A stretch of DNA of 64,000 nucleotides, taken from contig AP027304.1 in the NCBI GenBank assembly GCA_036322835.1, forward strand, positions 1,798,001 to 1,862,000, in the 5' to 3' direction. The stretch is from Tenuifilaceae bacterium CYCD. GTDB taxonomy: Bacteria; Bacteroidota; Bacteroidia; Bacteroidales; Tenuifilaceae. The notes beneath the pieces were generated by a model. It was not told the origin of the DNA and did no database searches. It was given only the letters and a program-made list of their open reading frames with translations. Below are positions 13,224 through 53,304 of the stretch, piece by piece. A program made the translations under genes and the position numbers. Position 1 is the first letter of the stretch. The number at the start of each line of letters is the position of its first letter.

Positions 13224-13265
13224 TGAAAAATTTACTGTAAATATATGCAAAAGCTAATATAGACT

Positions 13266-15445: not shown

Positions 15446-15502
15446 ATTACATTTAGTTTTAGTGCTTCTTTATTGCGAAACTTTTGGTTTGGTTTATTTG
15501 GT

Positions 15503-15510: not shown

Positions 15511-15532
15511 TAGATACACAAAAATTTTTACC

Positions 15533-16051: not shown

Positions 16052-16053
16052 GT

Positions 16054-16716: not shown

Positions 16717-16737
16717 TATTTAAATTATTGATTGTTT

Positions 16738-20246: not shown

Positions 20247-20267
20247 TTAAATTTCATCTATAAGCCA

Positions 20268-20275
20268 CAAAGGTA
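20268..20275 (-). promoter_or_regulatory. Candidate -7 box for the rsfS-ftsH-cdsA-psd operon
   Basis: On the minus strand TACCTTTG fits TAnnTTTG, 21 bases upstream of the rsfS ATG. No clear -33 TTTG was found. Confidence 0.4.
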
Positions 20276-20353
20276 ATTATTTTTAGACTCTTTAAAAATG
20301 GTGCTATATGATAATATGACAATAGAAAAAGGAGTAAAGCTAAAAATGGTTAT

Positions 20354-20386
20354 AAAAAAGGCTGTCCGCTACGAACAGCCTTTTTT
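20354..20386 (-). terminator. Rho-independent terminator after the DUF4412-like gene
   Basis: AAAAAAGGCTGT and ACAGCCTTTTTT are perfect 12-base arms around a 9-base loop (CCGCTACGA). On the minus strand the hairpin follows the stop at 20404 by 18 bases and ends in a T-run. The symmetry would let it act in both directions. Confidence 0.85.
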
Positions 20387-20403
20387 ATTTGTTCGTTGTA
20401 CGA

Positions 20404-21351
20404 TTACTGTTTTGTTTTATCTCCGCCAATTCCAATTATTTGATAATCGGAAATGTTGAATGATTTTGATGTGTTTGTGTTGATTTCTTTCACAAAAAGA
20501 TCGGAGCGAGCATTGGAATCGCTATCCTTGAAGTGCATTTCCAGAACAGTTCCCATTAAGTAGGCTCCAGCTCCGCCAGTGGCAAGGGCTTGGAGTCCGC
20601 CCATTTGTCCGTATGCGTTGGAGTAATCATACTTAATATCATTTGTTGCCCATATCTCTGCTTTCCCTTCGGGATTTTCGTATGTGTACTCTTTGCAATT
20701 ATACCCGGCAATGTTTTTTGTACGACCAGTAGCCTTATAGTACATATTGTAATTCGAAAGATCTTCTTGTTCGGCTGTTTCTGTTTGTTGGGTTTCAGCA
20801 TCAGTTTCCGTTTGTGCCTGTGACGAATCTATTGGCATTGCCATGCCACTTTTTTCACCATCCTTTTCCGAGAGAATTAGCATTGCTAAGTTTTTGTAAT
20901 CGAAAATCATCAGGGATTTCTGCGATTGGCCGGATTCTTTGTCTACGCTTTCGAACTCCATGGCAAAGTTTTTCGAATTCTTGTCAAAGTAAGTTGTGTA
21001 AGTGCCTTTGTTTACTTCGGTTGATGCAGAGTCAACAGATTCTATATCCATTTTCATGCTCGATGTGTAGCTGTAGTTCAAATCGTATTTCACGTTATTG
21101 AATCCCATCATACCCATCATTTTTTGCTGCATAAAACTGTTGGCAGGATCGGTTTGTTTTTGAGATTTTTGCTCCTGTTTGGGTTGTTGCTCTTGCTGTT
21201 CCTCTTCAATTTTTTCGTTGTTGTTGTTTTTAAGTCCTTTGACAACAGCTTTTTGTGCTTTATCTTTTATAAAACTTCCGATTTGTGCTTTCGATTCTAT
21301 AGCACTAATAACCATTATTGCAACTATTATTGCGATGACTCTTTTGCTCAT
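20404..21351 (-). CDS. Secreted DUF4412-like protein of unknown function
   Basis: From the ATG at 21351 the protein has 315 residues; a TTG two codons earlier is less likely. A signal peptide ends near ESKAQ. A Gln/Glu/Lys-rich low-complexity stretch (about residues 45-70) is followed by MMGMMGFNNVKYDLNYSYTS and a domain of repeated strands containing TGRTKNIAGYNCKEYTYE, the pattern of DUF4412 (periplasmic, unknown function). It is divergent from hydF with about 185 bases between, and ends before a strong terminator. Confidence 0.72.
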   Translation of the reverse strand: MSKRVIAIIVAIMVISAIESKAQIGSFIKDKAQKAVVKGLKNNNNEKIEEEQQEQQPKQEQKSQKQTDPANSFMQQKMMGMMGFNNVKYDLNYSYTSSMKMDIESVDSASTEVNKGTYTTYFDKNSKNFAMEFESVDKESGQSQKSLMIFDYKNLAMLILSEKDGEKSGMAMPIDSSQAQTETDAETQQTETAEQEDLSNYNMYYKATGRTKNIAGYNCKEYTYENPEGKAEIWATNDIKYDYSNAYGQMGGLQALATGGAGAYLMGTVLEMHFKDSDSNARSDLFVKEINTNTSKSFNISDYQIIGIGGDKTKQ

Positions 21352-21536
21352 TCTCAATTAGTTTTAGTTTAACAGTGTTTTTCAATATCAAATTGTATGC
21401 AAGTTAGTAATCTTTTAGCACAGTTAATATTGATGCCTAAAAATATGTAGGTGAACATGATTGCCGTTGGTTTGTTGATTGGATAACCATTACGTGATGA
21501 TTTCTGATATATTTGCAGGTAGTTAATTCGATTAAT

Positions 21537-22766
21537 ATGACAAGAGGGAAGGAGTCTAAGCCTCATATTGGTATTTTTGGGCGTAGAAACAACGGTAAAA
21601 GCTCGTTGATTAATCTGCTTGCCGGTCAAAATGTGGCTATTGTTTCGGATTTTGCAGGTACAACAACCGATCCTGTAAAAAAAACGTTCGAGATTACAGG
21701 TTTTGGGCCAGTTGTACTTATTGATACTGCGGGTATAGACGATGTTGGAGAACTTGGGAAAAAAAGGGTGGAGAAAACTTTAGAGTCGATTAAGCAAGTC
21801 GATTTGGCAATTCTGGTAACTACTGGAAATATTTGGGGAGAATTTGAGGATATGCTTGTTGCTGAGTTTTCTAAAACCGATACTCCCTTTGTTTTAGTCC
21901 ACAGTAAAGCCGATGTCGAGAAGGTTTCGGCAAGTTTCCGGGAGGTTATCAATGCAAAAAATCACAAAGGCTTTATCGAAACCACAACAAAGGATACATC
22001 CTGTACAGGTGTTTTGGTTGAGTTGATCCGTAGTGCAATTCCAGAATCATCGTACAAAACTCCAACATTATTAGGTGATTTGGTTAACTATGGTGATTTG
22101 GTGCTGCTTATCACTCCAATTGATGTTGAAGCACCCGCCGGTCGTTTAATTTTACCACAGGTGCAGGCCATACGAGATATATTGGATAATGATGCAGTTG
22201 CCATTGTACTAAAGGAGCGCGAAGTGGATGCCTTTTTACGTAAAACAAACATAAAACCAGCATTGGCTATCACCGATAGCCAAATATTTGTTAAGGCCGA
22301 TGCTTCAATCCCAAAGGATATTCCGTTAACTAGTTTTAGTATTCTGCTTGCTCGGTTTAAGGGCGATTTTGATAATTATATCAAGGGAACTCCAAAGATT
22401 TCGGAGCTGAAGGATGGCGATAGAGTTCTTCTGCTCGAGAGCTGTAACCACCATACTTCGTGCGATGATATTGGTAGGGTGAAGATTCCGCGTTGGATCT
22501 CTAATTTTACAGGAAAAAAGTTGGAGTACGAGGTTGTTGCGGGCCTAGATGCGTTGCCCTGTGATATTAAGGAATACGCATTGGTGATTCAGTGCGGTGG
22601 ATGCATGATTACCCGTAAGCAAATTGTCAATAGGTTGCGCCCTGCCATTGAAGCCGGAATACCTGTAACCAATTACGGAATGGCAATTGCCTACGTGCAG
22701 GGCATATACCAAAGAGCCATTGCTCCGTTTACTGCAAGTGCTATTTCAAAAGCTGATTACTTATAG
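21537..22766 (+). CDS. hydF: [FeFe]-hydrogenase maturation GTPase HydF
   Basis: The 409-residue protein is the scaffold GTPase on which the hydrogenase H-cluster precursor is built. The GTPase domain has G1 GRRNNGKSS at 15-23, GTTTDPV, G3 DTAGIDD and G4 HSKAD. The C-terminal cluster site shows CNHHTSC near residue 300 and CGGC near 350, the HydF C-x-H…C-x-x-C pattern. I chose the ATG at 21537 over an upstream TTG. HydE, HydG and the hydrogenase itself are not in the window. HydF does not mature [NiFe] enzymes, so it is not linked to the operon at 44-53 kb. Confidence 0.94.
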   Translation: MTRGKESKPHIGIFGRRNNGKSSLINLLAGQNVAIVSDFAGTTTDPVKKTFEITGFGPVVLIDTAGIDDVGELGKKRVEKTLESIKQVDLAILVTTGNIWGEFEDMLVAEFSKTDTPFVLVHSKADVEKVSASFREVINAKNHKGFIETTTKDTSCTGVLVELIRSAIPESSYKTPTLLGDLVNYGDLVLLITPIDVEAPAGRLILPQVQAIRDILDNDAVAIVLKEREVDAFLRKTNIKPALAITDSQIFVKADASIPKDIPLTSFSILLARFKGDFDNYIKGTPKISELKDGDRVLLLESCNHHTSCDDIGRVKIPRWISNFTGKKLEYEVVAGLDALPCDIKEYALVIQCGGCMITRKQIVNRLRPAIEAGIPVTNYGMAIAYVQGIYQRAIAPFTASAISKADYL

Positions 22767-22836
22767 TGAAAGTTGACCACGGGTTGTTGTTAGCTGATAT
22801 AAAGAGATGAATATTAAAGGTAAACAGCCATTGATA

Positions 22837-25308
22837 TTACTGTGGGTCAACATCCACCGATACTACTAGGGCATATAGTTCCTTGCGTTGTTTCAATATG
22901 TGTGTGTAGTAGTTTATTAGTTCCTTAATTCGGTTTGGAGCTAATTCTCGGTTTATTTTTACCATGATATTCATTATGTGAAGACCCTGAACTCTTCCAA
23001 TTAGCGGAGTTTCCGGTCCTAAAATATTTTCGCCTAGGCTATGGCGTAAACCATTTGCTACGAGTTCCGATGCCTGTGCAAGGAGTTCTTTATCCTTGTG
23101 TTTTAACGATATGCTAATTAGTCTGTAGAATGGAGGGTAATGGAAATTTTTCCTCTCTTCAATTTGAGAGGCGTAGTGTTCCAAATAATCGTGCTTTATT
23201 ATTTGATGGATAATAGGATGCTCAGGCTGAGAAGTTTGAAGTATTACAAGGCCCTGCTTCCCTTTCCGTCCTGCGCGTCCGCCTACCTGCGACATAAGTT
23301 GGTAACTTCTTTCAAACGCTCTAAAGTCTGGGAAGTTTAGCATATTGTCGGCATTCAGAATGCCAACCAGGCTAACGTTATCGAAATCCAATCCCTTGGT
23401 GATCATTTGTGTGCCTATTAGAATGTTTATGTGGCCAGACTCAAAATCACCAATAATCCTTTCGTAAGCAGTGCGGGAACGAGTTGAGTCTAAGTCTATT
23501 CGCTCAATAACCGCATTGGGAAAGAAAATGCCAAGTTCATCTTCCACTTTTTCGGTGCCAAATCCTTTAGGCTGAAGATTGCTGCTTCCGCAGGCAAGGC
23601 ATTCGTGCGGTTGCTGATAGGAGTATCCGCAGTAGTGGCAAACTAGCTGGTTGGTTGCTTTGTGGTAGGTGAGGGTAACATCACAATGCTCGCAATGAGG
23701 AATCCATCCGCATTCCCCACATTCGATGAACGGAGCAAAACCCCGTCGGTTCTGGAAGAGAATAATTTGCTCTTTGTTGTTCAGCGCTTTATCAATTGCA
23801 TTCAGCAGTGTGTCGCTAAAATGCGATCTCATCTGCTTTCGCTTACGGGCATCCTTAATGTCTACTATCTTAATCTCGGGAAGTTCAATTCCTCGGTAGC
23901 GTTCATTTAGTTCAACCAGTCCGTACTTTCCGGTTCGAGCGTTAAAGCATGTTTCGATGGCTGGAGTTGCTGTGCCAAGTAAAACCTTTGCGTTATGGAT
24001 TGATGCCAGAACAATTGCCGCATCGCGGGCGTTGTAGCGTGGCGCTGGATTGTATTGCTTGTAGGTGTTTTCGTGTTCCTCGTCAACAATTATCAACCCT
24101 AAATTTTTGTAGGGCAGAAATACTGAAGACCTAACACCAAGGATGATATCGAATTTGGCTAGGTTTGTTTTCGATTCAAGAACTCCATTGTAAACCTCAA
24201 CCCTTTGCGAATCGTTGAATTTGGAGTGGTAAACACCAACCCTGTTACCGAATATCTTGCGGAGTCGATTTATTATTTGCGCTGTAAGCGCTATTTCGGG
24301 CAGTAGGTAAAGAACTTGCTTGCCTTCGTCGATTGTTTTTTGAATTTGATGTATGTAGATTTCGGTCTTTCCGCTCGATGTTACCCCATGCAGCAAAACC
24401 ACATTATGGGTTTCGAATTTATCCTGAATTTGGTCGTATGCCATTTTCTGAGCCTTGTTTAAAGTGGCTGGGCTATACACCTCGTTATCAGAATTCGATA
24501 GTCGCGAAACGGTTTGCTCTTCCTGAATAAGAATTCCTTTCTGAATTAGCGCGGTTAGTATGCTTGGGCTAACATCAACCTTTTCGAGAATACTCTTCTT
24601 GGCAATTTTAAAGTTTAAAATATCCGATTTGTTTTCTGTTAACGATAGTAATGCAAGTATTAACCTTTGCTGAGCAGGTGCTCGTTTCATGCTATCGAGT
24701 AGGCTGTTCAGGTTGTCGTTGTTTTGATATTCCTGAGCAAGTGATATAAAAAATTCAGTTTTAGGTTGATATTCATTTTCGATTTCCTCGGTGATGCTCA
24801 GCGCCTGCTTGTTAAGTAGCGATTTTATTACCCCCATGGGATTCTTAAAATCTACCTTGCCAATAATTTCCTGAATGGTTAATTTTTTTTTGCTGTCGAG
24901 CAGGTGGACTATGATGTGCTCATTATCGGAGAGTTCAATTTCATCGTAGTCAGTTTTGCTAACATAGGTGTCACTTTCCATTTTTAACGCCGAAGGCAAG
25001 GCTGCTTTCATTACTTCGCCAATGGTACACATGTAGTACTCGGCAATCCATTCCCAGAATTTTAGCTGAGTATTCAGGACAATTGGCTCCTCATCGATGA
25101 ACTGAAGAATTTCTTTGGTCTCATATTTTTCGGGGACTTGTTGATGAATTTTGAATACCAGTGCTGCATATAGTTTCTTTTTTCCGAACGAAACTATAAC
25201 CCGCATGCCAATCCTAATATCGCCTACAAAATTTTTTGGAATTGAGTAAGTGTAGGATCGGGGTAGCGCAAGTGGAAGGATAACATCAACATACCAACTC
25301 TCTGCCAT
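22837..25308 (-). CDS. priA: Primosomal replication-restart helicase PriA
   Basis: The 823-residue SF2 helicase restarts stalled replication forks. The N-terminal DNA-binding domain begins SWYVDVILPLALPRSYTY. The helicase core shows Walker A HGVTSSGKTEIY near residue 305 and DEEH, then the zinc-binding inserts CGECGWIPHCEHCD and CHYCGY…CLACGSS. These are followed by the C-terminal helicase motifs GTQMITKGLDFDNV and QVGGRAGRK. ATG at 25308 is chosen over a TTG six codons upstream. It is convergent with hydF and separated from it by 70 bases. Confidence 0.96.
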   Translation of the reverse strand: MAESWYVDVILPLALPRSYTYSIPKNFVGDIRIGMRVIVSFGKKKLYAALVFKIHQQVPEKYETKEILQFIDEEPIVLNTQLKFWEWIAEYYMCTIGEVMKAALPSALKMESDTYVSKTDYDEIELSDNEHIIVHLLDSKKKLTIQEIIGKVDFKNPMGVIKSLLNKQALSITEEIENEYQPKTEFFISLAQEYQNNDNLNSLLDSMKRAPAQQRLILALLSLTENKSDILNFKIAKKSILEKVDVSPSILTALIQKGILIQEEQTVSRLSNSDNEVYSPATLNKAQKMAYDQIQDKFETHNVVLLHGVTSSGKTEIYIHQIQKTIDEGKQVLYLLPEIALTAQIINRLRKIFGNRVGVYHSKFNDSQRVEVYNGVLESKTNLAKFDIILGVRSSVFLPYKNLGLIIVDEEHENTYKQYNPAPRYNARDAAIVLASIHNAKVLLGTATPAIETCFNARTGKYGLVELNERYRGIELPEIKIVDIKDARKRKQMRSHFSDTLLNAIDKALNNKEQIILFQNRRGFAPFIECGECGWIPHCEHCDVTLTYHKATNQLVCHYCGYSYQQPHECLACGSSNLQPKGFGTEKVEDELGIFFPNAVIERIDLDSTRSRTAYERIIGDFESGHINILIGTQMITKGLDFDNVSLVGILNADNMLNFPDFRAFERSYQLMSQVGGRAGRKGKQGLVILQTSQPEHPIIHQIIKHDYLEHYASQIEERKNFHYPPFYRLISISLKHKDKELLAQASELVANGLRHSLGENILGPETPLIGRVQGLHIMNIMVKINRELAPNRIKELINYYTHILKQRKELYALVVSVDVDPQ

Positions 25309-25388
25309 GACTTTTTCCAATATCAAGCGCTAAGATAGAAAATTTAGTTGACGGTTGTTAAACTGGTAGTGATGATTATTCCGAATGC

Positions 25389-25865
25389 TTAATCGAAATC
25401 CGCCACTTCTATTTTTACAATTTCGTATCCTTTCATTACCTCTTTGGTGGCGTAGGCAACACCTGCAAAAACAAATAATAGTCCAATGAAGAATAGAACT
25501 GTTGCTAGAAAACCGTATGAATTTTCGTTATGCGAAAGGGAGTTTATACCAATTACAATGCAGTTTATAATGAAAAATGCAACGGCAACCGTGTAGGAAA
25601 CTACAGCATTACGTACCAATTTAACTCGGTATGTGAGTTTGCCTATCTGCTTGTTGATGCTGGCTAGTCTTTTTGTTTCGTGCTCGGATAATTTGCCTGA
25701 GTGCTGAGTTACTATTAATTTTCTTTTCTCTTCATCCAAACTTCTAATTCTGCCAACAACAACGGAGTATTTGTTATTCATCCCAAGTAAAAAAAGGCCA
25801 CAGCTGTTAACCATAACTCCAGGAGCAAGCATTAACTTAATAATTTCCACTGCATCCATATCCAT
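25389..25865 (-). CDS. DUF2721-family membrane protein
   Basis: The 158-residue protein has an N-terminal hydrophobic segment with MLAPGVMVNSCGLFLLGMNN followed by the arginine-containing VVGRIRSLDEE, then two C-terminal hydrophobic helices. This matches DUF2721 integral membrane proteins, whose function is unknown. A CAAATTTA (minus strand TAAATTTG) box at 25889-25896 suggests its own promoter. Confidence 0.78.
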   Translation of the reverse strand: MDMDAVEIIKLMLAPGVMVNSCGLFLLGMNNKYSVVVGRIRSLDEEKRKLIVTQHSGKLSEHETKRLASINKQIGKLTYRVKLVRNAVVSYTVAVAFFIINCIVIGINSLSHNENSYGFLATVLFFIGLLFVFAGVAYATKEVMKGYEIVKIEVADFD

Positions 25866-26043
25866 CCATTTAAAAGCGTTTAAGAGTGCAAATTTAGCAT
25901 AAATAGGATGTTTGGTTTAATGTAAATTCAGCAACATTCAATAAATGTATCGAAAAACGATTTAATTGTATGAATATCAATTTATTGATGACTTGATGTT
26001 GTTGAGCACAATCCTGTATGTTTTTTAGTATCAGAGTCGATTG

Positions 26044-26628
26044 CTAGTTTGCAATCATGATTTCCAGATTTGTGGCGAACATTTTAACAGAGATAGCCAA
26101 CAGCATAACACCAAAGAATTTTCTGAGTATGAAAATTACTGTACTGCCAATTATATGCTCAACTTTGTCGATATACCGTATTATGAAATAAACTATCACC
26201 ATATTAAGGATTAGCCCAGTAATGTTGTTCACAATATGGTACTCGGAGCGGAGCGAAAGAAAAGTTGTTAAAGCGCCGGGGCCTGCAATTAGCGGAAAGG
26301 CCACAGGAACAATGGTTGCCGTTTTCTGATTACCTTCATTTTTTATAATATCGATACCCAAAATCATCTCAAGTGCAAGGATAAAAATCACGAGTGAGCC
26401 TGCTAGGGCAAACGAGGCAACATCAATGTTGAATAGCCTAAGCAAGGTTTCTCCTGCAAAGAAAAATAGGATAAACATTACAAATGAAACGATGCATGCT
26501 TTCCCTGCTTCAATTTGCCTTTGATTGTTCTTTAAGCTCAAAAAAACGGGTATAGCGCCCAGTATATCTATTATTGCAAATAGAATGATGAATGCGCTGG
26601 CAATTTCGGTGATATTTAGATTGCTCAT
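26044..26628 (-). CDS. MarC-family (UPF0056) membrane protein
   Basis: The 194-residue protein has six hydrophobic segments. The MarC signatures FIILFAIIDILGAIPVFLSL near the N-terminus and PVAFPLIAGPGALTTFLSL near residue 110 are visible. MarC was once linked to multiple antibiotic resistance, but that role was not upheld and the substrate is unknown. It starts 13 bases after sucD, so it is probably in the sucC-sucD transcript. Confidence 0.88.
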   Translation of the reverse strand: MSNLNITEIASAFIILFAIIDILGAIPVFLSLKNNQRQIEAGKACIVSFVMFILFFFAGETLLRLFNIDVASFALAGSLVIFILALEMILGIDIIKNEGNQKTATIVPVAFPLIAGPGALTTFLSLRSEYHIVNNITGLILNMVIVYFIIRYIDKVEHIIGSTVIFILRKFFGVMLLAISVKMFATNLEIMIAN

Positions 26629-26641
26629 TTTATGGTGCTTG

Positions 26642-27517
26642 TCAAATTTTTATCAGTTTATCGTGAATGGTTTTTCCAATTTGTGCAAGTTGCGTTATAA
26701 CTGTAATTCCTGCATCCGTAAATGCAGCATCCTTCGACTCAACCGTTCCCGTGTTTCCCATGATGATTGCGCCAGCATGTCCCATTCTTTTTCCCTGTGG
26801 CGCCGATCGGCCCGCAATAAAGGCAAATACTGGTTTTTTTATATTTTTCTTGATGTATGCAGCAGCGCGTTCCTCCATGTCTCCTCCAATTTCACCAATT
26901 AACACTATCGCATCGGTTTCGGAATTGGCCTCAAATTGGTTGAGCCAGTACATGTAGTCGGTTCCAACTATAGGATCGCCACCAATTCCTAGTGCAGTAG
27001 AGATTCCTAGTCCGCTTCGTACAACTTGGTCGGCTGCTTCGTAAAGTAAAGTTCCGCTCCGCGAAATCATTCCAATTTTTCCTTTTTTGAATATATGTCC
27101 AGGCATGATACCGGCTTTGGCAAGGCCAGGAACTATTATGCCTGGGCAGTTGGGGCCTATTAAAGTCACCTTATAGGTGTCGACAATGCGTTTCACTTTA
27201 ATCATGTCGTGAACAGGGATTCCCTCTGTTATGCAGATAATGGTCTTTATTCCGGCGAACACCGATTCAAGAATTGCATCGCAGGCATAAATAGATGGAA
27301 CAAATATCAAACTGACGTTTGCCCCGTTAATCTCAACACTTTCGGCTATGGTGTTGTAAACTGGGATGTGTTTAAACTTGGTTCCGCCTTTTCCGGGCGA
27401 TACTCCCGCAACGATATTGGTTCCATAGTCTAAACATAGTTCTGCATGAAGGCTCCCTTCTTTTCCGGTGATACCTTGCACTACTATTCGGCTCGTATCC
27501 GTTAATCCTACTGACAT
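26642..27517 (-). CDS. sucD: Succinyl-CoA synthetase alpha subunit
   Basis: The 291-residue protein is the CoA-binding and phospho-histidine subunit, interconverting succinyl-CoA and succinate with nucleotide phosphorylation. It shows [14 protein letters not shown] at the N-terminus, [22 protein letters not shown] near residue 122, and the active histidine in [12 protein letters not shown] near residue 246. Its start is 11 bases downstream of sucC, so both subunits are made together. With fumarase it supports a reductive or oxidative succinate branch. Confidence 0.95.
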
Positions 27518-44042: not shown

Positions 44043-44795
44043 CTACCGCTTTTTTCTAGTTAAATCCAATAATCCATTTATGATGGTGAGCGGATGTGTA
44101 GGATTTCCTGGAATATAAAGGTCAACCTTGTGATTCTCCAAGAAACTTCTATCCAAGGCTGGGCTTCCAGCAAAAATTCCTCCACTTATGGCATCTGTGC
44201 CAACCAGCACAATTACTTTCGGATCGGGTGTTGCGTTGTATGCAATCTCTAGGGCTTTTGCCATATTTTGGGTGATAGGGCCTGTTATTGCAATTCCGTC
44301 GGCATGGCGGGGCGATGCTACAAACTCAATACCAAAACGGCTCATGTCAAACTGAACGTTATTAGCCGCATTTAGCTCCCACTCGCAACTGTTATCGCCA
44401 CCAGCGCTTACCTGCCTCAATTTTAAAGATTTTCCAAATATTTGTCTAATTTCTTTACGAACAGCTGCAGGGTTAACTTCTATTGCGAAATCATCACCCT
44501 CCTTAACAATAAGTCTTTCCCGTTCGTTTGTGGAAATTTTATAATCGGTGGTGAACTTAATTTTTTCGGGATATTGTAACGCGCATTCCCCGCAAAAGGT
44601 ACACTTGCCTAAGTCAATTGCAACCGGATTGCTGCTAATCGCATGCATGGGGCAAAGGTTAGCCAATTCAGTTTCGTTTACCTTTTGGGTACTAATAATG
44701 GGTCTTCCCCTAAATATTCCGGGAACCTTAGCGGTTTTTACATTTGGGATGAATTGCTTTCCCTGATGGTATAATATTTTTAGATTATCTAGCAT
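44043..44795 (-). CDS. Fused ferredoxin + HyfI/NuoB-like small subunit lacking most cluster ligands
   Basis: The 250-residue protein joins two modules. Residues about 40-80 are a reduced HyfH-like ferredoxin with C48P and CTFCGEC (C65, C68, C71), enough for one [4Fe-4S] cluster where HyfH/NuoI have two. Residues about 115-250 are a HyfI/NuoB-like domain with the conserved FVASPRHADGIAITGP (158-173). Of the four cysteines that bind the proximal/N2 cluster in relatives, only C137 (SCEWE) remains. D134 stands in the first position, D201 (GTDAISGGIF) in the third and N231 (YIPGNP) in the fourth. The proximal cluster is therefore unlikely to form. It is the last gene of the seven-gene operon, 11 bases after the large subunit. 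Confidence 0.85.
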   Translation of the reverse strand: MLDNLKILYHQGKQFIPNVKTAKVPGIFRGRPIISTQKVNETELANLCPMHAISSNPVAIDLGKCTFCGECALQYPEKIKFTTDYKISTNERERLIVKEGDDFAIEVNPAAVRKEIRQIFGKSLKLRQVSAGGDNSCEWELNAANNVQFDMSRFGIEFVASPRHADGIAITGPITQNMAKALEIAYNATPDPKVIVLVGTDAISGGIFAGSPALDRSFLENHKVDLYIPGNPTHPLTIINGLLDLTRKKR

Positions 44796-44806: not shown

Positions 44807-46306
44807 TTAGAGGTCATGACCGCAGTACGATAGGTTAAAACTCTTATTACAAATCGGGAAATCGGAAATTTCGTTATTGCGAACTGCAAGTGCAAGTGCA
44901 AGCCAGTTGTGGAATGATGGATCTTTTACCTTATAAACCGCAAGGTCTCCATCTGAGTCAGTAATGGCGCAATGGCAAATTTCGCCTCTCCAGCCCTCAA
45001 CCAATGATATTGAGAATGCGTTTGGCTGAAGTTTATTGGGCATATCGTAGTTGGTCTTGCTTTTGGGAATATTCTTTAGCAATTGCCGAATATAGGACAT
45101 CGATTGCCATATCTCTTCCCTACGGATTTGTGCCCGGGAGTATACATCGCCATGATGTTTTAGGATTGGCTCATGGTTTAGCTGTGGATATAAAGCGTAT
45201 GGGTGTGAAGTTCTAATATCTCTGGTTAGTCCACTCATGCGGGCAGACATTCCAACAGTTCCAATACTTAGAACATCTTCGTATGAAACAATGCCGGTAC
45301 GTTCTAACCGCGATAAGGCACTTGGTAGTTTGAATAGTTCCGTGCACATCTCGTTGAAATCTGGCTCGTAAGTGTTTAATACTTCATTGAGCCTATCACC
45401 AAGTTCCTTTGTGAATGGGAATTGCGTTTTTCCTGGTCTTATCAAACCTTTAGAGAGCCTGTTGCCTCCCCATTCCTGGGTAAAATTTATTATAGGAGTT
45501 CTTAATCGGCCAAAAACTGAACTGCCTAACTGGTAAGCAATATCAGTGCATATGGCGCTTAAATCGCCAGTATGTATTGCAATTCGTTCTAGTTCTAGTG
45601 CCAGGGTTCTGTAAAAGTCGATCTCTGGCTTTGGATCGCAACCGCTTAAACTTTCCCAAAGGTAGCAGAATGCTGATGTGTGACCTGCAACTGTATCGCC
45701 TGCTATGCTTTCGGCAAGAGTTACCCGTTGAAGTAGATTCTTTTTTTGTAGGAATAGATCCTCAAGACCTCTATGCTGATATCCAAGTTGAATTTCAAGA
45801 TGGAGTATTTGCTCTCCGTTGCAGATAAATCGGAAATGCCCTGGCTCAATAACACCTGCGTGAATTGGCCCAACACCAACCTCGTGGAGTTCTTCGCTAT
45901 CGATGTTGAAAAATGGGTAATTATCCATAACGCTGGACTTGTCGGCTCTGTTATAGGAGTATCGAACCGGTTTCATCCATGGATGATTCACAAAGGTTAT
46001 TCCGAAGTTTTCGGATAGTTCCCGTTCAAACCTCTCGAAGCAAAGTAGTTTGCTCGACATCGATTCAAACTTTTTGGATGGATCCACTATGCAGGAACTG
46101 ATGCAAATTTCGTGCGTGGAGTCATCGGCAATGCAGCAGATAAGTTTGATGCTATTGCCTTGGGCGTACCCAAAATAGTTTACGCAATGCCGATCGGAAT
46201 GCTTGATTAGCAGTGAAATATTTGTTTCACGGAATTGCTGATAGTCCAACACTGGAATATCGGCAATTGGAACGGTTTGGTTATTTTTAATTGATATGTA
46301 GTTCAT
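44807..46306 (-). CDS. HyfG/NuoCD-like large subunit without nickel-binding cysteines
   Basis: The 499-residue protein has an N-terminal NuoC-like domain (about 1-125) and a NuoD/HyfG-like domain (about 140-499). Family signatures: VGPIHAGVIEPGHFRF (145-160), LGYQHRGLEDLF (174-185), ELERIAIHTGDL, and RGEICHCAITD near 440. The first nickel motif, RxCGxC in hydrogenases, reads ESIAGDTVAGH (199-209), with Ala202 and Thr205 in the cysteine places. The C-terminal motif, normally DPCxxC, reads NKSFNLSYCGHDL with one displaced cysteine at 495. It therefore cannot bind a standard [NiFe] centre. The N-terminal domain holds six cysteines (41, 57, 58, 68, 72, 89), which is unusual. Confidence 0.87.
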   Translation of the reverse strand: MNYISIKNNQTVPIADIPVLDYQQFRETNISLLIKHSDRHCVNYFGYAQGNSIKLICCIADDSTHEICISSCIVDPSKKFESMSSKLLCFERFERELSENFGITFVNHPWMKPVRYSYNRADKSSVMDNYPFFNIDSEELHEVGVGPIHAGVIEPGHFRFICNGEQILHLEIQLGYQHRGLEDLFLQKKNLLQRVTLAESIAGDTVAGHTSAFCYLWESLSGCDPKPEIDFYRTLALELERIAIHTGDLSAICTDIAYQLGSSVFGRLRTPIINFTQEWGGNRLSKGLIRPGKTQFPFTKELGDRLNEVLNTYEPDFNEMCTELFKLPSALSRLERTGIVSYEDVLSIGTVGMSARMSGLTRDIRTSHPYALYPQLNHEPILKHHGDVYSRAQIRREEIWQSMSYIRQLLKNIPKSKTNYDMPNKLQPNAFSISLVEGWRGEICHCAITDSDGDLAVYKVKDPSFHNWLALALAVRNNEISDFPICNKSFNLSYCGHDL

Positions 46307-46311: not shown

Positions 46312-47736
46312 TTATGATAAGAACATTACACTCTCTTTAATTAGCTGAACAAAAGAATCGGGTGGGGTTAGCCCTAGGTATATCGAAAGGAATAGTAGTG
46401 CGTACTGCGAGTACGATTCCCATGGCTTTATAACCGGAACGTTGCTTTCGTCGAAGTTAACCACAGGTGTAAATAGCACTTTAAGAATATTCTTTGCAAA
46501 AGCCCAGATAATTATGGTCAGCAGTAGAAGAACGGCTATAAGTATGAAAATTTGATGCCCTTCGAATAGTGCCCTAAAAATAAGGAATTCACTCACAAAT
46601 AGACCGGATGGAGGCATTGCAGTTCCGCAGATAAATCCAATTAAAACTACAATTGCTCCGGTTGGGTTGTACTTAAAGTAGTTGCCAATGTGGTAGATGC
46701 TTTTATCTTGATAAACTCTATATATTTGGTTGTACTGAAAGAAAAGGCTCGATTTTACAAAGGCATGAAGCACAATGTGTAGTATTGCAGCGTAGTAGCC
46801 TATTCCACCGACTGATATTGCAAGCATTACCAATCCCATGTGCTCGATGCTTGAGTAGGCAAACATACGCTTAATGTTTTTTACCTTGATCATGTAAACC
46901 GTAGCCACAAAAATTGAAAGAACGGCCGAAATACCAATCACCAGGTTTGCCCAATGCTGCAGAGGTGTGCTTGCAATAATCTTGTAAATCCTAAAAATAC
47001 CAACTACGCCCATATTCATAAGTACGCTCGATAGTAGTGCTGCTGCGGGTCCAGGTGCTTTGTCTTTTGCATCTACACCAGCGGTAAACATAGGAACAAG
47101 TCCTGCCTTGGCGGTAAAACCAGCAAAAATGAAAAGAAATGCCAACTTTAACCAGAATTGGTTGAGGCTTGCGCTATGGGTCATTAGGTATTGGTACGAT
47201 AGATCGTCGGAGCTGGCTTTCCCTAAGGAAAGACTTAAGAATAGAATTCCAATAAAGATGAATGTAACGCTTATTGCACAAATGAAAACATACTTCCAGG
47301 TACCTTCAAGGGCTAGCTTATTGCGGTGATGGTAAATTAATGCCGATGCTGCCAGCGTTGTAATTTCGGTGAAAATCCACATCACCGCGATATGGTTCGA
47401 AAGGTAGGCAACGCCTATTGCCGCAATTAAAATTGTCATTGAGGTGAAATAAATTGCACGCGATTTGGCGGGCTCATCGTGTAGGTCAACGTAACGATGG
47501 CTGTGGAAAATTGCTGGAATTGAGATTATACTCAAAACGAGAAGCAGTAGAACTCCTAGCGAATCGAAGGTGAAGTATTCGGCCTCGGTTACATTTAAAT
47601 GGAAATATGCATATATGGTAAAACCCCACTGCAGAACAATGAACAGTAAGGTTAGCATATAATTGACCATTTTATTCCTATTGATGAACAGTCCGGTTCC
47701 TATTAATAATGCCCCTATTAAGTATGGAATAGTCAT
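46312..47736 (-). CDS. HyfF/NuoN-like membrane subunit
   Basis: The 474-residue protein has about 13-14 hydrophobic segments and the antiporter-like core shared by NuoL/M/N, MrpA/D and HyfB/D/F. MWIFTEITTLAASALIYHH (about 118-136) carries the TM5 glutamate. GFTAKAGLVPMFTAGVDAKD carries the TM7 lysine. FAYSSIEHMGLVMLAISVGG follows near 290. The length and motif variants are closest to HyfF. It should form a proton- or sodium-conducting part of the complex. It lies 20 bases after the HyfE-like gene and five bases before the large subunit. Confidence 0.87.
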   Translation of the reverse strand: MTIPYLIGALLIGTGLFINRNKMVNYMLTLLFIVLQWGFTIYAYFHLNVTEAEYFTFDSLGVLLLLVLSIISIPAIFHSHRYVDLHDEPAKSRAIYFTSMTILIAAIGVAYLSNHIAVMWIFTEITTLAASALIYHHRNKLALEGTWKYVFICAISVTFIFIGILFLSLSLGKASSDDLSYQYLMTHSASLNQFWLKLAFLFIFAGFTAKAGLVPMFTAGVDAKDKAPGPAAALLSSVLMNMGVVGIFRIYKIIASTPLQHWANLVIGISAVLSIFVATVYMIKVKNIKRMFAYSSIEHMGLVMLAISVGGIGYYAAILHIVLHAFVKSSLFFQYNQIYRVYQDKSIYHIGNYFKYNPTGAIVVLIGFICGTAMPPSGLFVSEFLIFRALFEGHQIFILIAVLLLLTIIIWAFAKNILKVLFTPVVNFDESNVPVIKPWESYSQYALLFLSIYLGLTPPDSFVQLIKESVMFLS

Positions 47737-47756: not shown

Positions 47757-48389
47757 TTAATAGTCCTTAAGATTGCTTAATTCGTCCACATCGATAGTTT
47801 TGAATACGTCGCCAATTTTATTCAGGAATATTCCCAGAATCAGAACGCTGGCAAAAATGTCGAGCATCACGCCTAGGTTAACAAGCATCGGCATTTCGTT
47901 CCCCACGGCAAGCGATAGAACGAATACGCCATTTTCGATAACCAGATACCCCATAACGTGAGTGATAATCTTTCTGCGCGAGGCTATGATATATAAACCC
48001 ACAAAAATTGTAGATAGGGCTACGACAAAGAATATTTTGTCGAGGTTGGGATCGACAATGGTTCCCGAAAGAAGGATTGTTGTTACCACTATCAATGTTG
48101 ATATAATTAGCGAAACAAAGTTTGGAACGTACGGCTCGGCCTCGCGTGTTATCTTGTTTCTTTTTAGGACATGTGCCAGAAATATTGGAACTGCTACCGA
48201 TTTAAAAACTATAGTTTCTAGCAAAATCAATATCAGGTTTAGGGTGTTGAGCTCATGGAGCTGCATAAATGCCACAGCAAACAAAATCGCCCCTTGAAAT
48301 GCCAATACTTTCAGGTATGTCAGCAGTCGATTTGCAATCGACATGTAAAGCAGCGTGATTAGAAATGTTATTAGCAGTACGTTTATCAT
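47757..48389 (-). CDS. HyfE/NuoK-like membrane subunit
   Basis: The 210-residue protein has about six hydrophobic helices, with LLTYLKVLAFQGAILFAVAF, ILLETIVFKSVAVPIFLAHV (glutamate and lysine in one helix) and VMGYLVIENGVFVLSLAVG. These are the HyfE features, twice the size of NuoK. It belongs to the proton/sodium channel region of the complex. It lies 20 bases downstream of the HyfC-like gene. Confidence 0.85.
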   Translation of the reverse strand: MINVLLITFLITLLYMSIANRLLTYLKVLAFQGAILFAVAFMQLHELNTLNLILILLETIVFKSVAVPIFLAHVLKRNKITREAEPYVPNFVSLIISTLIVVTTILLSGTIVDPNLDKIFFVVALSTIFVGLYIIASRRKIITHVMGYLVIENGVFVLSLAVGNEMPMLVNLGVMLDIFASVLILGIFLNKIGDVFKTIDVDELSNLKDY

Positions 48390-48409: not shown

Positions 48410-49315
48410 TTATATGAATTTCCCGATTAGGAGTAGTACCCCAAAGAATATCAGCAGTGTAACCGATGTGAGTACCACAATAAACTGTGGGTTATGGCTC
48501 ATCCTGAAACGTGCCATGAACGATTCCACCAAGCCCATAAATACTGCCAAAATAAACTGAGTTAGAAAGAATAGCGGAATGGAGTACTGGTAATGTATGG
48601 TTCCAACAAAAAGGTTGAAAACAATTGCTGCATAGATGGCAAACTTTAAATATCCGGCAGTAAGAATTAAGCCAAGATCGAAACCACTGTTATCTAGAAT
48701 CATAACCTCGTGAATCATGGTTAGCTCTAGGTGCGTTTTAGGATCGTCGATAGGCATTCGACTGTTCTCAATCATCGAAATCATCACAAGTACAAATGCT
48801 CCTAAAACAGCAATGGCATAAGTGGTATATGATCCTAGGTGCAATGCTGCAAAAATCTCGTGAAACGAGGTGTGCCCTGTGAGTAATGCCAGGGAGCCCA
48901 TCAAAATAAAAAATGCAGGCTCCGCAAATAGGGAGAATAAGGCTTCGCGGCTTGCACCCATTCCCTCGAAGCTGCTGCCAGTATCCAATGCTGCAATTAT
49001 GCTGAAGAATTTTCCTAAGGCTAGAATGTAGGCAAAAAGAATAAAATCGCCCTGAAAACTAAATAATCCTTTGGAATCGCCAAAGGGAACGAGCAGCATG
49101 GCTATTACTACTGTAGAGAAATAGATGGTTGGCGCAATTTGAAAAACAAAACTGGTGGTGTTGCTGTAAACAGCCCCTTTCCTAAAAAGCCTAATGGCAT
49201 CGGCTAGGTGCTGGAATAGACCAGGCCCTTTTCGTCCCGATGCTATACTTTTTGTCCTGTTAATTATACCCGTATAGAATATTGCCGCCAAAATAATCAG
49301 TATTGCACTTAGCAT
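48410..49315 (-). CDS. HyfC/NuoH-like membrane subunit
   Basis: The 301-residue protein corresponds to NuoH/HyfC/HycD, which anchors the peripheral arm and lines the quinone or electron-entry chamber of relatives. It has the signature SGRKGPGLFQHLADAIRLFRKG at about residues 26-47 and EMTMIHEVMILDNSG-like LTMIHEVMILDNSGFDL near residue 205. SRMPIDDPKTHLELT precedes it. Eight hydrophobic segments are visible. Its start lies two bases after the second HyfB-like gene. Confidence 0.9.
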   Translation of the reverse strand: MLSAILIILAAIFYTGIINRTKSIASGRKGPGLFQHLADAIRLFRKGAVYSNTTSFVFQIAPTIYFSTVVIAMLLVPFGDSKGLFSFQGDFILFAYILALGKFFSIIAALDTGSSFEGMGASREALFSLFAEPAFFILMGSLALLTGHTSFHEIFAALHLGSYTTYAIAVLGAFVLVMISMIENSRMPIDDPKTHLELTMIHEVMILDNSGFDLGLILTAGYLKFAIYAAIVFNLFVGTIHYQYSIPLFFLTQFILAVFMGLVESFMARFRMSHNPQFIVVLTSVTLLIFFGVLLLIGKFI

Positions 49316-49317: not shown

Positions 49318-51345
49318 TTATAGATGTTTAAGTATATCAATGAGTTGTAATAGTTTCTCGTAAATCAGCGGAATAGCAATTATTGCTAGAATAAATGTTA
49401 CTCCGTATATAATGTAGTACTGTAGCCTTCCATTCTGCAGGAAGGTGAACTTGCTCATGAAAAATCGTATCGACTGTATCGGTTTATCAATTAGAGTCCT
49501 TTCGATTTTGTCGTAGGGACTTGATTCAAACTCGGCATGCGATGGAAAAACATCTTCCACAGCTTTTTCTTTTTTGAAGATTAAAAGAATGAATCGGAAT
49601 AGTTTTGAGTACGAACGGGCAAAGGAGTTTGCCGTGTACTGCAGCTTTGCTGTTTCGCCAGTGTAACCGCATCCCCACGTTTCATCACTAGAGATTATGT
49701 GTCGCTTCTGAACCATTCGTCTAATGCCAAATACTATAGCAGAGAACACAAGCAATGATGCGAATGAGATCGAAATCATTTGAAGAATTTCAGAACTCTC
49801 GCTAATATTTGCGTTGGCGTAGCCCTGATTTAGTGCGATGAACAGATTCAGCGGTTTGTTAACTATGGCCAAAAACGCATTAGGGAAAAGTCCAATTGAC
49901 ACTATTAGGGCTGTAATAAAGTAAAGCGGAAGAATTTGACCAAAGGGAGCCTCGGTAATTTGTTGCTTAAAGTGATGTCGAGGATTTCCTAGGAAAACAA
50001 CTCCAAATGCTTTGGTAAAGCAAAGTAGTGCTAGTCCACCAATTAGTACCAGCGCAAGAACCGAGAATATTACTGTGATTAGTATGCCGCCAGCTGCGCT
50101 TGGAAGCCAGTTGTATAACCCGCTGTAAATTAAGAATTCGGATATAAAACCGTTGAATGGCGGAAGGCCCGATATTGCAAGCGCCGCAATAAGGAATAGG
50201 AATGCTGTTTGGGGCATCTTTTTTATTAAACCGCCCAGTTTTTCGATCTGAACCGTGTGGGTTGCCTGGTAAACAATGCCTGCCGAAAAGAAAAGTTGAG
50301 ATTTAAAAAGCGAGTGGTTCAGAGTGTGGAGTAGTGCCCCTGCAAAACCAAGCGATGCTACCGCTGAGTTTTGTGTGCCTAGCCCAACGCAACCAATTCC
50401 GATTCCTAATCCTATTATTCCAATGTTTTCGATACTGTGGTATGCCAGTAATCGTTTTAAATTATGCTGAAGAATAGCCAGCATTACACCATAAATCCCT
50501 GATATTGCAGAAAATGCTATTATTATGTATCCAATTACCTCAAGGTTGGTGTTCTGCAGTAGTATAATGCGGAGAATTCCGTATATCCCAATTTTAATCA
50601 ATACTCCAGACATAATACCTGAAACATGGGCAGGCGCTGCTGGATGTGCATAGGGTAGCCACGTGTGAAAAGGGACAAAGCCTGACTTAATGGCAAATCC
50701 TATAAAAAAGAATATGAACAGCATTAGTGATACAGAGCTACTATTCTCGTGCGAAAACTGAGATATTGCCTCAAAATCGTAGCTCCCTGTTTTTGCTGAA
50801 ACCCATACAAAACCTAGTAGTAAAAATATTATAGATACGTGCGATTGTATGAGATAATTAATCCCTGCTTTTATGGTAGAAACCTTGTTGTGCTCGAATA
50901 TAACCAGCACAAATGCGCTGAGAGCCATTATTTCCCACGCCAGTAGAAATACTATTGAATTTTGTAATCCGCAAAGGCTCAGCAGTGCCGTTTGGAGCAA
51001 TATGAATGCCACAATGTGTAGGTTGATGCTGTTGCGCATGGTTAAATACTCTCTCATATAGTAAATCCCATACAAGCCACCTGTTAAAATGGTGAAGTTG
51101 ATTATTAGTATAAACCATGCCGAGAGTGCATCAATTCTAACAGGAATTTCGCCTGTTACTGCGTTGCCAGAGAATACAAATTGGTAGTTTTCTCCACCTA
51201 AAACGTCTATAGCAACATACGATGATAGGATAGCATTAAGTATTACTGCAATGTATGCAACTATTCCTCGCCATTTTATACTCACAAATGGCATTGCGGC
51301 AAAGGCAATTAGAGGTATAGTTAGAAATAATCTTAATGCTTCCAT
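49318..51345 (-). CDS. HyfB/NuoL-like antiporter subunit (second copy)
   Basis: From the ATG at 51345 the protein has 675 residues with about 15-16 hydrophobic segments. It shows LLAWEIMALSAFVLVIFEH (about 131-149), the TM5 glutamate. FVPFHTWLPYAHPAAPAHVS and GVLIKIGIYGILR carry the conserved histidine and lysine, and LLAYHSIENIGIIGLGIG follows. A C-terminal extension has SSDETWGCGYTGETAKLQY, the HyfB hallmark, and ends in one further membrane helix. It is about as similar in plan to the preceding gene as one paralogue to another. Start codon choice: a TTG one codon upstream is less likely. Confidence 0.9.
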   Translation of the reverse strand: MEALRLFLTIPLIAFAAMPFVSIKWRGIVAYIAVILNAILSSYVAIDVLGGENYQFVFSGNAVTGEIPVRIDALSAWFILIINFTILTGGLYGIYYMREYLTMRNSINLHIVAFILLQTALLSLCGLQNSIVFLLAWEIMALSAFVLVIFEHNKVSTIKAGINYLIQSHVSIIFLLLGFVWVSAKTGSYDFEAISQFSHENSSSVSLMLFIFFFIGFAIKSGFVPFHTWLPYAHPAAPAHVSGIMSGVLIKIGIYGILRIILLQNTNLEVIGYIIIAFSAISGIYGVMLAILQHNLKRLLAYHSIENIGIIGLGIGIGCVGLGTQNSAVASLGFAGALLHTLNHSLFKSQLFFSAGIVYQATHTVQIEKLGGLIKKMPQTAFLFLIAALAISGLPPFNGFISEFLIYSGLYNWLPSAAGGILITVIFSVLALVLIGGLALLCFTKAFGVVFLGNPRHHFKQQITEAPFGQILPLYFITALIVSIGLFPNAFLAIVNKPLNLFIALNQGYANANISESSEILQMISISFASLLVFSAIVFGIRRMVQKRHIISSDETWGCGYTGETAKLQYTANSFARSYSKLFRFILLIFKKEKAVEDVFPSHAEFESSPYDKIERTLIDKPIQSIRFFMSKFTFLQNGRLQYYIIYGVTFILAIIAIPLIYEKLLQLIDILKHL

Positions 51346-51354
51346 CAATATAGT

Positions 51355-53304
51355 TTAAACTGAAAATAAGTTTAATGCTGAAAGAATAAAAATGGCCAAT
51401 ATAAAAACTATTCCATACAACACGTAGGTCTGTATTCGCCCATTCTGAATGAATCTAAAGTAATTCGCCGTGAAAAGAATACGTTGGGTTACTAGGTTAA
51501 TGAATCGAGTTTCGAAAAAGTCAGTGTAGAATGATGAGTATTCCCTTTTTTGCGGGAAGATTTCCCCGCTACTTAGTTCGTTATACTTTTTCTTTTCTAT
51601 CAAAAAGAAGTTGAATATTTTTCCCAGTTGCTTCGAGAACGACTTTCCGGTGTATTGTATGCGAGGTGTTGGGTTTGTATATCCGCAGCCCCATGTCTCG
51701 TCTGCTAAAATTGATTTATTTCTTGTCACCATTTTCCTAATACCCCATACTACAAGTATCACGGCAAAGACTGCGAGAGAGAAAACCATTATGGATTTTA
51801 GCGTGTCCGAAAAATCATTTGAAAATGTTGGGTTTATTGCCAGTCCGTTTGAGAAATCCTTGATTATGGAGTTTATCGTGTTTACATAGAATGATGGTAA
51901 AAATGCGACGCTTAGCATGGCCGCAATTATTGCCAGTTGCGGAACTATCATTAGGTTTGATACTTCATGGGGCTTGTGATCGAGACTAGTTCTAGGTGTC
52001 CCAGAGAATATCACTCCATAAGTTTTTGTAAATGTCAATAGCGATAAACCTCCAATTATGCTTAATCCAGCAAAGGATAAGATTAAGAGAATTGTTAATC
52101 CATTATCGCCAATGCCAAATCCATTTACCAACCCGCTATAGATTATGAATTCTGATACAAAGCCGTTGAAAGGAGGAAGTCCTGCAATTGCAACTGCTCC
52201 AATCAAAAACAGGAACGCTGTTTTGGGCATATATTTGGACAATCCGCCCAGTTTATCCATGTCCCTTGTGTGTGTTTGTTGGTAAATCGAACCTGCCGAG
52301 TAAAATAGTAACGATTTAAACAAGGAGTGATTTAGTACATGGAGCAGGGCTCCTCCAAAACCTAGAAAATATAATATATCTGATTTTATACCAATGCCAA
52401 CAAGCCCAACACCAATCCCTATTCCAATTATTCCAATATTCTCGATTGTGCAGTATGCAAGCATGCGTTTAAAATCCCGATGTGCAGCCGCATTCAAAAT
52501 GCCATAAATTCCAGTGAGAATGGAGATTGAAATAACAATTTCACCTAAAAGCAGATGATTGTTGGTGAGGTATGAGGCAACTCTAATTATGCCGTAAATA
52601 CCCATTTTAACTATCACGCCCGACATTACACCCGATACATGCGAAGGTGCGGAGGGGTGAGCGTGTGGTAGCCAGCTATGTAGTGGAATAAATCCAGCCT
52701 TAAGTCCAAAGCCAGCGAAGAATACAAGGAATAACCATATGTTATTATTGCCGATGAAGAATGGTTGTAATGAGTCAAAATTAAAAGAGCCAGTAGTTGC
52801 GTATAACCATATAAAACCAATGGTTAAAAATACTATGCTGATGTGCATCTGCACAAGGTAATTTATGCCAGCCTTAAGCGTTTTAGGATTATGACCATCA
52901 AACATTACTAGCATTGCCGAAGATAAAGACATAATCTCCCAAATTACCAGAAACACAAACCCATTCTGAACAATGCAAACCAAAACCATTGAAAGATGGA
53001 ATATGGCAAACATTATCCAATGTAAATTCAACTTGGCTGAAGGATTTGAGTAGCCTTTTAGGTAACCTAATCCATAGAATGCTCCAGTTATTGAGGTGAA
53101 ATTAACGATTAGCAAAAACCAAGCAGAAAGCCCGTCTATTTTTATTGGAACGGATCCTATTGCTAACCCTAAATTTAACTGATACGCCAGAGTATTCCCC
53201 ATCAACGCAGACAAAGCCATCCAACTGCTAATCAATGCAACAATTACAACTGTAATTATTGCTACTATACCACCATTGCTCCTATTGCTATTGATATAAG
53301 CCAT
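51355..53304 (-). CDS. HyfB/NuoL-like antiporter subunit (first copy)
   Basis: The 649-residue protein is the first gene of the operon. It has LVIWEIMSLSSAMLVMFDGH (about 118-137), FIPLHSWLPHAHPSAPSHVS, GVIVKMGIYGIIRVA and RMLAYCTIENIGIIGIGIG, the shared core of proton-pumping NuoL/M-like proteins. The C-terminal DETWGCGYTNPTPRIQYTG matches the same hallmark in the next gene. Tandem HyfB-like copies most likely arose by duplication. Together with the HyfF-like subunit the complex has three antiporter-like modules. Confidence 0.9.
   Translation of the reverse strand: MAYINSNRSNGGIVAIITVVIVALISSWMALSALMGNTLAYQLNLGLAIGSVPIKIDGLSAWFLLIVNFTSITGAFYGLGYLKGYSNPSAKLNLHWIMFAIFHLSMVLVCIVQNGFVFLVIWEIMSLSSAMLVMFDGHNPKTLKAGINYLVQMHISIVFLTIGFIWLYATTGSFNFDSLQPFFIGNNNIWLFLVFFAGFGLKAGFIPLHSWLPHAHPSAPSHVSGVMSGVIVKMGIYGIIRVASYLTNNHLLLGEIVISISILTGIYGILNAAAHRDFKRMLAYCTIENIGIIGIGIGVGLVGIGIKSDILYFLGFGGALLHVLNHSLFKSLLFYSAGSIYQQTHTRDMDKLGGLSKYMPKTAFLFLIGAVAIAGLPPFNGFVSEFIIYSGLVNGFGIGDNGLTILLILSFAGLSIIGGLSLLTFTKTYGVIFSGTPRTSLDHKPHEVSNLMIVPQLAIIAAMLSVAFLPSFYVNTINSIIKDFSNGLAINPTFSNDFSDTLKSIMVFSLAVFAVILVVWGIRKMVTRNKSILADETWGCGYTNPTPRIQYTGKSFSKQLGKIFNFFLIEKKKYNELSSGEIFPQKREYSSFYTDFFETRFINLVTQRILFTANYFRFIQNGRIQTYVLYGIVFILAIFILSALNLFSV

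Follow-up and report, generated by a model that had tools for sequence, protein, structure and literature searches.

In a 64,000-nucleotide window of the genome of the Tenuifilaceae bacterium CYCD (contig AP027304.1; the whole stretch analysed is called the window here) we identified an energy-converting-hydrogenase-related (Ehr) complex whose small subunit carries two acids and an asparagine at ligand positions of the proximal iron-sulfur cluster, N2. More than 100 relatives keep acids in the place of this cluster, so the complex looks like a working ion pump that has been rebuilt without the usual electron path. Our tentative reading, drawn from sequence comparison, is that of an Ehr lineage without N2, N6a and the [NiFe] site, which may serve as an ion pump or antiporter in which acids replace the charge of N2. 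How N2 and quinone redox chemistry drives ion movement in complex I has long been argued over. A family in which the ion path and the polar surroundings of N2 persist, with carboxylates for ligands, would be a natural experiment on which coupling parts are needed without the cluster.

An Ehr complex encoded by a seven-gene operon

The genome around the window is a single contig of 3.92 Mb. The operon comprises seven genes on the minus strand, running from 53304 to 44043 with intergenic gaps of 2-20 bp, and encodes two HyfB-like proteins followed by HyfC, HyfE, HyfF, HyfG and, last, a ferredoxin fused to a HyfI-type small subunit (250 aa, ATG start; Table 1). The gene for the fused subunit is the sole Oxidored_q6 (PF01058) gene of the genome, and the closest named match to its product, among the matches listed, comes from a Bacteroidales MAG (92%).

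Table 1. Features of the operon in the window and of related plasmid loci
Feature	Location	Strand	Basis
Fused ferredoxin (HyfH/NuoI-like) and NuoB/HyfI-like small subunit	44043..44795	-	ORF; PF01058, 77 bits at 136-244; MbhJ/FHL subunit 7 alignment
Codons D134-N-S-C137, former CxxC loop of the N2/proximal cluster	44385..44396	-	Codons checked; PDB alignment
Codon D201, N2 ligand position three	44193..44195	-	Codons checked; PDB alignment
Codon N231, N2 ligand position four	44103..44105	-	Codons checked; PDB alignment
C48, C65, C68, C71, full ligand set for one [4Fe-4S] cluster (N6b position)	44583..44654	-	Codons checked
HyfG-like large subunit (NuoC+NuoD-like)	44807..46306	-	PF00346/PF00329; alignment to FHL subunit 5 and Mbh alpha
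Codons C444-H445-C446 of HyfG, possible alternative ligand pair	44969..44977	-	Place reckoned from the ORF
Codon C253 of HyfG	45548-45550	-	Clade-favoured cysteine
HyfF-like antiporter-type membrane subunit	46312..47736	-	PF00361
HyfE-like membrane subunit	47757..48389	-	PF00420; NCBIfam hydrogenase 4 membrane subunit below cut-off
HyfC/NuoH-like membrane subunit	48410..49315	-	PF00146
HyfB-like antiporter-type subunit, second copy	49318..51348	-	PF00361
HyfB-like antiporter-type subunit, first copy, first gene of the operon	51355..53304	-	PF00361
Fluoride riboswitches (RF01734) of four plasmid Ehr operons	L229:3858-3928, L225:3971-4041, L226:3863-3933, L224:3600-3673		

The assignment to Ehr follows from the large subunit, which is group 4 hydrogenase-like and lacks Ni-Fe CxxC pairs, and from the antiporter-like subunits in the same operon. 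Aligned to FHL subunit 5 and Mbh alpha, HyfG has AGDT in place of CGIC and Ser493 at the third ligand; the alignment stops before the fourth. A [NiFe] CxxC pair was found in none of 43 HyfG rows, which include both acid and four-cysteine groups (45 loci were fetched for this motif table, three of them without a full HyfG), and the window complex and the relatives examined are therefore Ehr complexes. Group 4 [NiFe] hydrogenases have four Ni-Fe cysteines and Hyp maturation; here the CxxC pairs are absent, and a search for HypD that matches 4 of 14 control genomes returned no match in the window genome (97% complete). A hydrogenase with unusual ligands was rejected on the absence of the CxxC pairs and of HypD. 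Four Rnf/Nqr-type matches were identified in the same genome.

The founding paper on Ehr complexes is said to be that of Marreiros et al. in 2013. The window operon shares with Ehr the HyfB, C, E, F, G and I gene types as well as the missing [NiFe] CxxC pairs, but it differs in having acids at the N2 ligand positions and in the loss of N6a; four cysteines are present in 34 of the 141 small subunits censused. No description of an Ehr complex without N2 was recognised in the literature searched, with Marreiros et al. 2013 outside that search. In published work Ehr function is treated as unknown or proposed, and an oxidoreductase activity coupled to ion transport appears as a proposal only (PMC6349859, PMC6728331, PMC10284858, PMC7894505).

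Among other known systems, Hyf/Hyc (7z0s) provides the best sequence match of a solved structure for the large subunit and the top Foldseek match for the small one. Unlike Hyf/Hyc, the window complex has neither Ni-Fe CxxC pairs nor N2, and its operon is adjoined not by formate dehydrogenase but by RlmN-like and nitroreductase genes, which recur only next to the operon in the single genome of the nearest relative (L078 and L112). The large subunit also lacks what we take to be the quinone-site Tyr motif of complex I. NuoB, NuoI and NuoCD of complex I (2fug, 7awt) are homologous to subunits of the window complex, but the single PF01058 gene of this genome lacks the N2 ligands that complex I has. 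A further likeness, by description only, is to the DAB inorganic-carbon pumps. According to one paper, DabA/DabB couple a NuoL-like ion path to a reaction other than electron transfer, and the cytoplasmic partner is a zinc protein, DabA, which sets them apart from the window complex (PMC13144422).

Acids at the N2 ligand positions

An earlier note on this DNA had placed D134, C137, D201 and N231 at the ligand positions of the cluster, within a framework otherwise kept, and both points stand. The four residues align onto the four proximal/N2-cluster cysteines of solved structures (MbhJ, 6cfw_J, E 2.3e-24; E. coli FHL subunit 7, 7z0s_G), a codon check agrees, and the frame around them (SPRHADG..TGP, GGIF and YIPG) is intact. 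The only cysteines of the subunit are 48, 65, 68, 71 and 137, and it lacks the four N2 cysteines of NuoB/HyfI small subunits. An AF2 model has a mean pLDDT of 86.6 and is least certain across blocks 131-140 (pLDDT 64) and 141-150 (55); its best Foldseek matches are FHL subunit 7 and, below it, MbhJ (6cfw_J; TMt 0.80, rmsd 1.9, 126 columns).

Homologues were gathered from 296 genomes of the phylum, 99 relatives of the window, 97 relatives of G009, a contig scan (best 80 of 580) and four plasmid proteins. After removal of rows identical over a 90-residue stretch, 135 distinct small subunits remained, the window's included; 29 have the four cysteines and 106 do not. The sampling favours sequences that resemble the window's, and the proportions of acid and cysteine rows are therefore uninformative on abundance. 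Nearly all of the 106 (104) belong to the window's clade, which includes records from Bacteroidota and Spirochaetota.

Three of the four positions are near-fixed in this clade. Residue 134 is D in 102 of the 104 sequences, with G and A in the other two, both of which have D137; residue 201 is D in 103 and E in one; and residue 231 is N in 103 and H in one. Position 137 is C in 82 sequences and otherwise A (11), T (3), N, G or D (2 each), S or V (1 each). The question raised beforehand, whether D/C/D/N are themselves conserved in homologues with the same fusion, is thereby answered positively for D134, for an acid at 201 (104/104) and for N231, but not for C137. The earlier statement that the subunit retains one of four ligands went too far: because C137 varies, with other residues in 22 of 104 rows, no N2 ligand is firmly retained.

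The same pattern is seen by locus. Among 80 named loci, DCDN occurs at 63, DADN at 6, DTDN at 3 and eight single types at the rest, and the ferredoxin cysteine set is present at all 80. Exceptions at 134, 201 and 231 are E201 in L116, H231 in L173, and a shift of the acid from 134 to 137 in L174 and L177. When 108 clade rows (not de-duplicated) were compared with 14 four-cysteine rows, the sharpest differences in the small subunit fell at L44, D134, D201 and N231, each of which is Cys in the four-cysteine rows.

The ferredoxin domain keeps one complete cluster site

The ferredoxin had been described as half of one. It does have four cysteines, at 48, 65, 68 and 71, but these form a complete set for one cluster: they correspond to C4, C5, C6 and C7 of the eight-cysteine relative L005, and C1-C3 and C8 are gone. 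A 2[4Fe-4S] ferredoxin has two full four-cysteine sets, of which the window protein has one whole and the other absent. Borrowing the labels of complex I, we take the full set to be the N6b position and the lost set to be N6a. All four N6b cysteines are kept in the 104 non-Cys rows that cover the ferredoxin, and in 105 of 105 in an enlarged set. N6a was counted as present when C8 was found together with three or more Cys among the 18 residues that precede C4. By this measure it is absent from 105 of 105 N2-less rows with a ferredoxin domain, versus 7 of 29 four-cysteine rows (141-row set).

The seven relatives that have kept the N2 cysteines while missing N6a are L065, L070, L006, L007, L073, L077 and L012. 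Such proteins are a possible first step toward a truncated chain.

Origins of the N2-less state

A tree of 74 small-subunit cores unites the 37 acid rows from the window's clade in a single group (97/92), and the sister of this group is a four-cysteine protein of G101 with the loop CNSC (88/76). Had the window copy been a lone variant among fused homologues with four cysteines, decay would have been suggested. Such homologues do exist, 24 of them on the window's side of this tree, but the window copy belongs to a large, separate clade.

Other trees place some of these sequences differently. A 63-row large-subunit tree recovers the clade (100/99), but with a four-cysteine row, L033 of G101, inside it (93/73). 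An 82-row core tree (129 columns, midpoint root, bootstrap unsettled) places 24 four-cysteine rows (99/94) within the acid rows, and the branches leading up to them have 87/60 and 98/88. For the core trees the DCDN group was thinned, so that 82 of 135 rows entered one tree and 74 of 141 the other. Since the trees disagree on the placement of G101 and of the four-cysteine rows, a single origin of the acids in the clade is likely, though unproved.

Three further N2-less sequences lie across a 100/100 branch from the window's clade in the 74-core tree, and each of these outside lineages is a single sequence. The small subunit on an Allomeiothermus silvanus plasmid has T/D/E/S at the N2 positions. 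That of a Mycobacterium branderi plasmid has N/D/D/A and groups with four-cysteine Burkholderia/Caballeronia rows (100/97). The third, from the MAG contig G333, has D/C/D/D and shares 58-59% identity with the four-cysteine proteins from G097 and G014, and 45% with the window protein. Both Allomeiothermus and G333 sit on long branches at an open fork. All three have an acid on the CxxC loop and another at the third ligand, with D, S or A at the fourth position, and in the two that carry a fused ferredoxin N6a is missing and N6b present. Changes of label on the 74-core tree number at least three, gains and losses together. If four cysteines were never regained, N2 would have been lost two or three times outside the clade and three or four times in all.

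The membrane arm and a possible role for fixed charge

The residues of the membrane arm, with roles that we assign by analogy with complex I, are invariant in each alignment (rows not de-duplicated). Specifically, E123, K202, K233 and K330 of HyfB are kept in 128 of 128 rows of a joint alignment of both copies; E124, K210 and K328 of HyfF in 98 of 98 (85 from the clade and 13 others); and E183, D190, D191, E197 and E203 of HyfC in 92 of 92 (78 from the clade and 14 others). Judged by these residues, the ion path is intact. In HyfG, R179 is present in 107 of 107 rows (93/93 in the clade) and H245 in 106 of 107 (92/93), and we take these two, by correspondence with complex I, to be conserved residues on the N2 side.

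An oxidised [4Fe-4S] cluster held by four thiolates carries a charge of about -2. The two acids would provide a fixed charge of about the same size, as in oxidised N2, next to the large-subunit residues Arg179 and His245, and the coupling route that leads from the acidic HyfC residues to the antiporter-like subunits could then stay workable without electrons reaching N2. The leftover N6b-type cluster may fold the ferredoxin domain or sense redox state. The lineage would be an old and maintained one in which, of three Fe-S clusters, N6a and N2 were given up along with the [NiFe] site and N6b was kept. We lean toward charge replacement because the acid pair was reached more than once, R179 and H245 are kept, and the ion path is intact.

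Some observations count against this reading. The N6b cysteines, kept in 105 of 105 rows, are what one would expect of a cluster that still carries electrons more than of one with a structural role only; the cysteines C444, C446 and, mostly, C253 of HyfG in the clade could hold another kind of centre; and, as far as the conservation pattern goes, the near-fixed N231 is needless under pure charge replacement. A broader proposition, that a complex-I-type machine moves ions without electron transfer to the coupling site, that fixed charges replace oxidised N2, that this state was reached three or four times, and that N6a is lost and N6b kept wherever the ferredoxin is fused, seems to us doubtful when taken as a whole.

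Alternative uses of the N2 site

Alternatively, the site may have been re-tooled for other redox chemistry. The pocket lined by D134, D201 and N231 would bind a hard-ligand metal ion or a small substrate, and reduced ferredoxin would pass electrons through the N6b-type cluster to this pocket and so drive the membrane arm. The complete retention of the N6b ligands points this way, as do the exchanges seen at the three positions, which are of the kind expected among metal ligands (D to E at 201, N to H at 231, and Asp moved from 134 to 137); moreover, at least three possible hard ligands are present in the clade and in each of the three N2-less sequences outside it. However, the fourth position, which is N in the clade but D, S or A elsewhere among these sequences, is loose for a metal site, and N6a, the usual entry cluster, was lost along with N2. 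The structural model is least certain in just the blocks (131-150) that would form part of the pocket. No shared partner enzyme, donor or acceptor gene stood out beside the clade operons among the 25 largest neighbour families listed. We regard this alternative as rather unlikely.

It is improbable that the centre was instead relocated, as a cluster or metal near the place of N2 held by C253, C444 and C446 of HyfG, perhaps together with C137 or with D134 and D201 of the small subunit. What suggests it is the distribution of cysteines in the large subunit. Among 89 distinct clade rows, C444 is present in 87, C253 in 84, C41 in 83 and C446 in 75; among 14 four-cysteine rows C444 and C253 are found in none, C41 in one and C446 in two. 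H40 is present in all 89 clade rows and, like R290 and K286, is among the other HyfG residues favoured in the clade. C444 directly follows the RGE motif, which presumably lies near the active site, as in hydrogenases, and C137 is available in 82 of 104 small subunits. Yet only 70 of the 89 rows hold C41, C253, C444 and C446 together, and 22 of 104 small subunits are without any cysteine at the N2 positions. C253 is likewise Cys in Ehr complexes of Rhizobium, Azospirillum and Burkholderia that have four N2 cysteines. In addition, of the N2-less outsiders, M. branderi has C253 but neither C444 nor C446, and Allomeiothermus has none of the three.

Decay, with the subunit on its way out or kept as a mere scaffold without selected chemistry, is very hard to credit and was rejected: two of three clusters are lost and C137 is variable, but for one pair (window versus L112) dN/dS is about 0.04 in the small-subunit gene (dN 0.040, dS 0.959) and 0.035 to 0.062 across all seven operon genes, a mark of strong purifying selection, three positions are near-fixed over 104 distinct sequences, the clade occurs in both Bacteroidota and Spirochaetota, and a like replacement is found elsewhere in the tree. 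The earlier note had held that electrons cannot take the N2 path and that selection for a new role is a better account than decay; conservation across the clade and the low dN/dS support this interpretation. The domain may then serve structure or a different ligand, as the note also proposed.

Gene neighbourhoods, fluoride riboswitches and possible physiology

Beside the charge-replacement reading that we tentatively prefer stands a proposal for physiology, which draws on gene neighbourhoods. An HTH/PTS EIIA-type gene lies upstream of HyfB at 13 of 14 four-cysteine loci (L034-L040 and L105-L110, not L033). It was seen at none of the clade's 108 loci, 62 of which extend 0.8 kb beyond the first HyfB on the upstream side. 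Genes for SulP anion transporters occur near the Ehr operon at seven loci, in about three lineages by tree. They are found just downstream (L184:10763-12490, L177:5989-8202 and L033:4611-6398), upstream behind the HTH-EIIA gene (L034:565-2289, L038:3759-5495 and L106:4668-6401; all coordinates stop-to-stop) and, in L174, ~7.7 kb downstream of the operon. Within the clade they are seen at 3 of 108 loci, 96 of which hold 1.5 kb downstream and 62 of which hold 0.8 kb upstream.

A fluoride riboswitch (RF01734) was identified 5' of the Ehr operon in four of six plasmid loci scanned, those of Burkholderia cenocepacia, B. multivorans, Caballeronia and the N2-less M. branderi (Table 1), and was absent from the Allomeiothermus and Variovorax plasmid loci scanned. 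In M. branderi a NUDIX gene lies between riboswitch and operon. Three annotated records have, near the riboswitch loci, DUF190 and enolase genes, or DUF190, crcB and pyrophosphatase genes. Scans found no fluoride riboswitch in the window, in 20 clade loci (19 of which reach the operon start) or in 8 four-cysteine loci, and fluoride control of the window operon was rejected on the result for the window.

We suggest that the complex may be an ion pump or cation/proton antiporter for pH or ion homeostasis, outside H2 metabolism. This role is proposed because of the riboswitches of plasmid Ehr operons, one of them in N2-less M. branderi, and because of SulP at seven loci. As riboswitches were unseen in the clade and SulP is present at only 3 of its 108 loci, the proposed physiology is borrowed from relatives. 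For some Ehr, H2 metabolism is made less likely by the four plasmid operons that follow fluoride riboswitches. In a review, formate hydrogen lyase is named among the common fluoride-riboswitch enzymes, and Na+/H+ antiporters are the next commonest class after exporters (PMC11139923). The large subunits of the four riboswitch-linked plasmid Ehr lack the Ni-Fe CxxC pair, so some "formate hydrogenlyase" of fluoride regulons may be Ehr.

The arrangement of subunit genes varies among relatives. The fused subunit has no adjoining HyfG at L101:13994-14764, L173:5040-5801, L176:9974-10729, L179:2461-3213 and L190:1704-2726; three of these five genomes carry a 55-56% HyfG elsewhere, and two have only distant HyfG matches. 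Other records hold two Ehr sets. On a MAG contig (L183) a four-cysteine set at 2-3388, cut at the locus start, is arranged head-to-tail with a set of the acid clade at 3418-10762. A plasmid of Variovorax sp. PBL-E5 (L192) encodes two different successive Ehr operons, at 9466-16750 and 20162-27346, one with and one without a fused ferredoxin.
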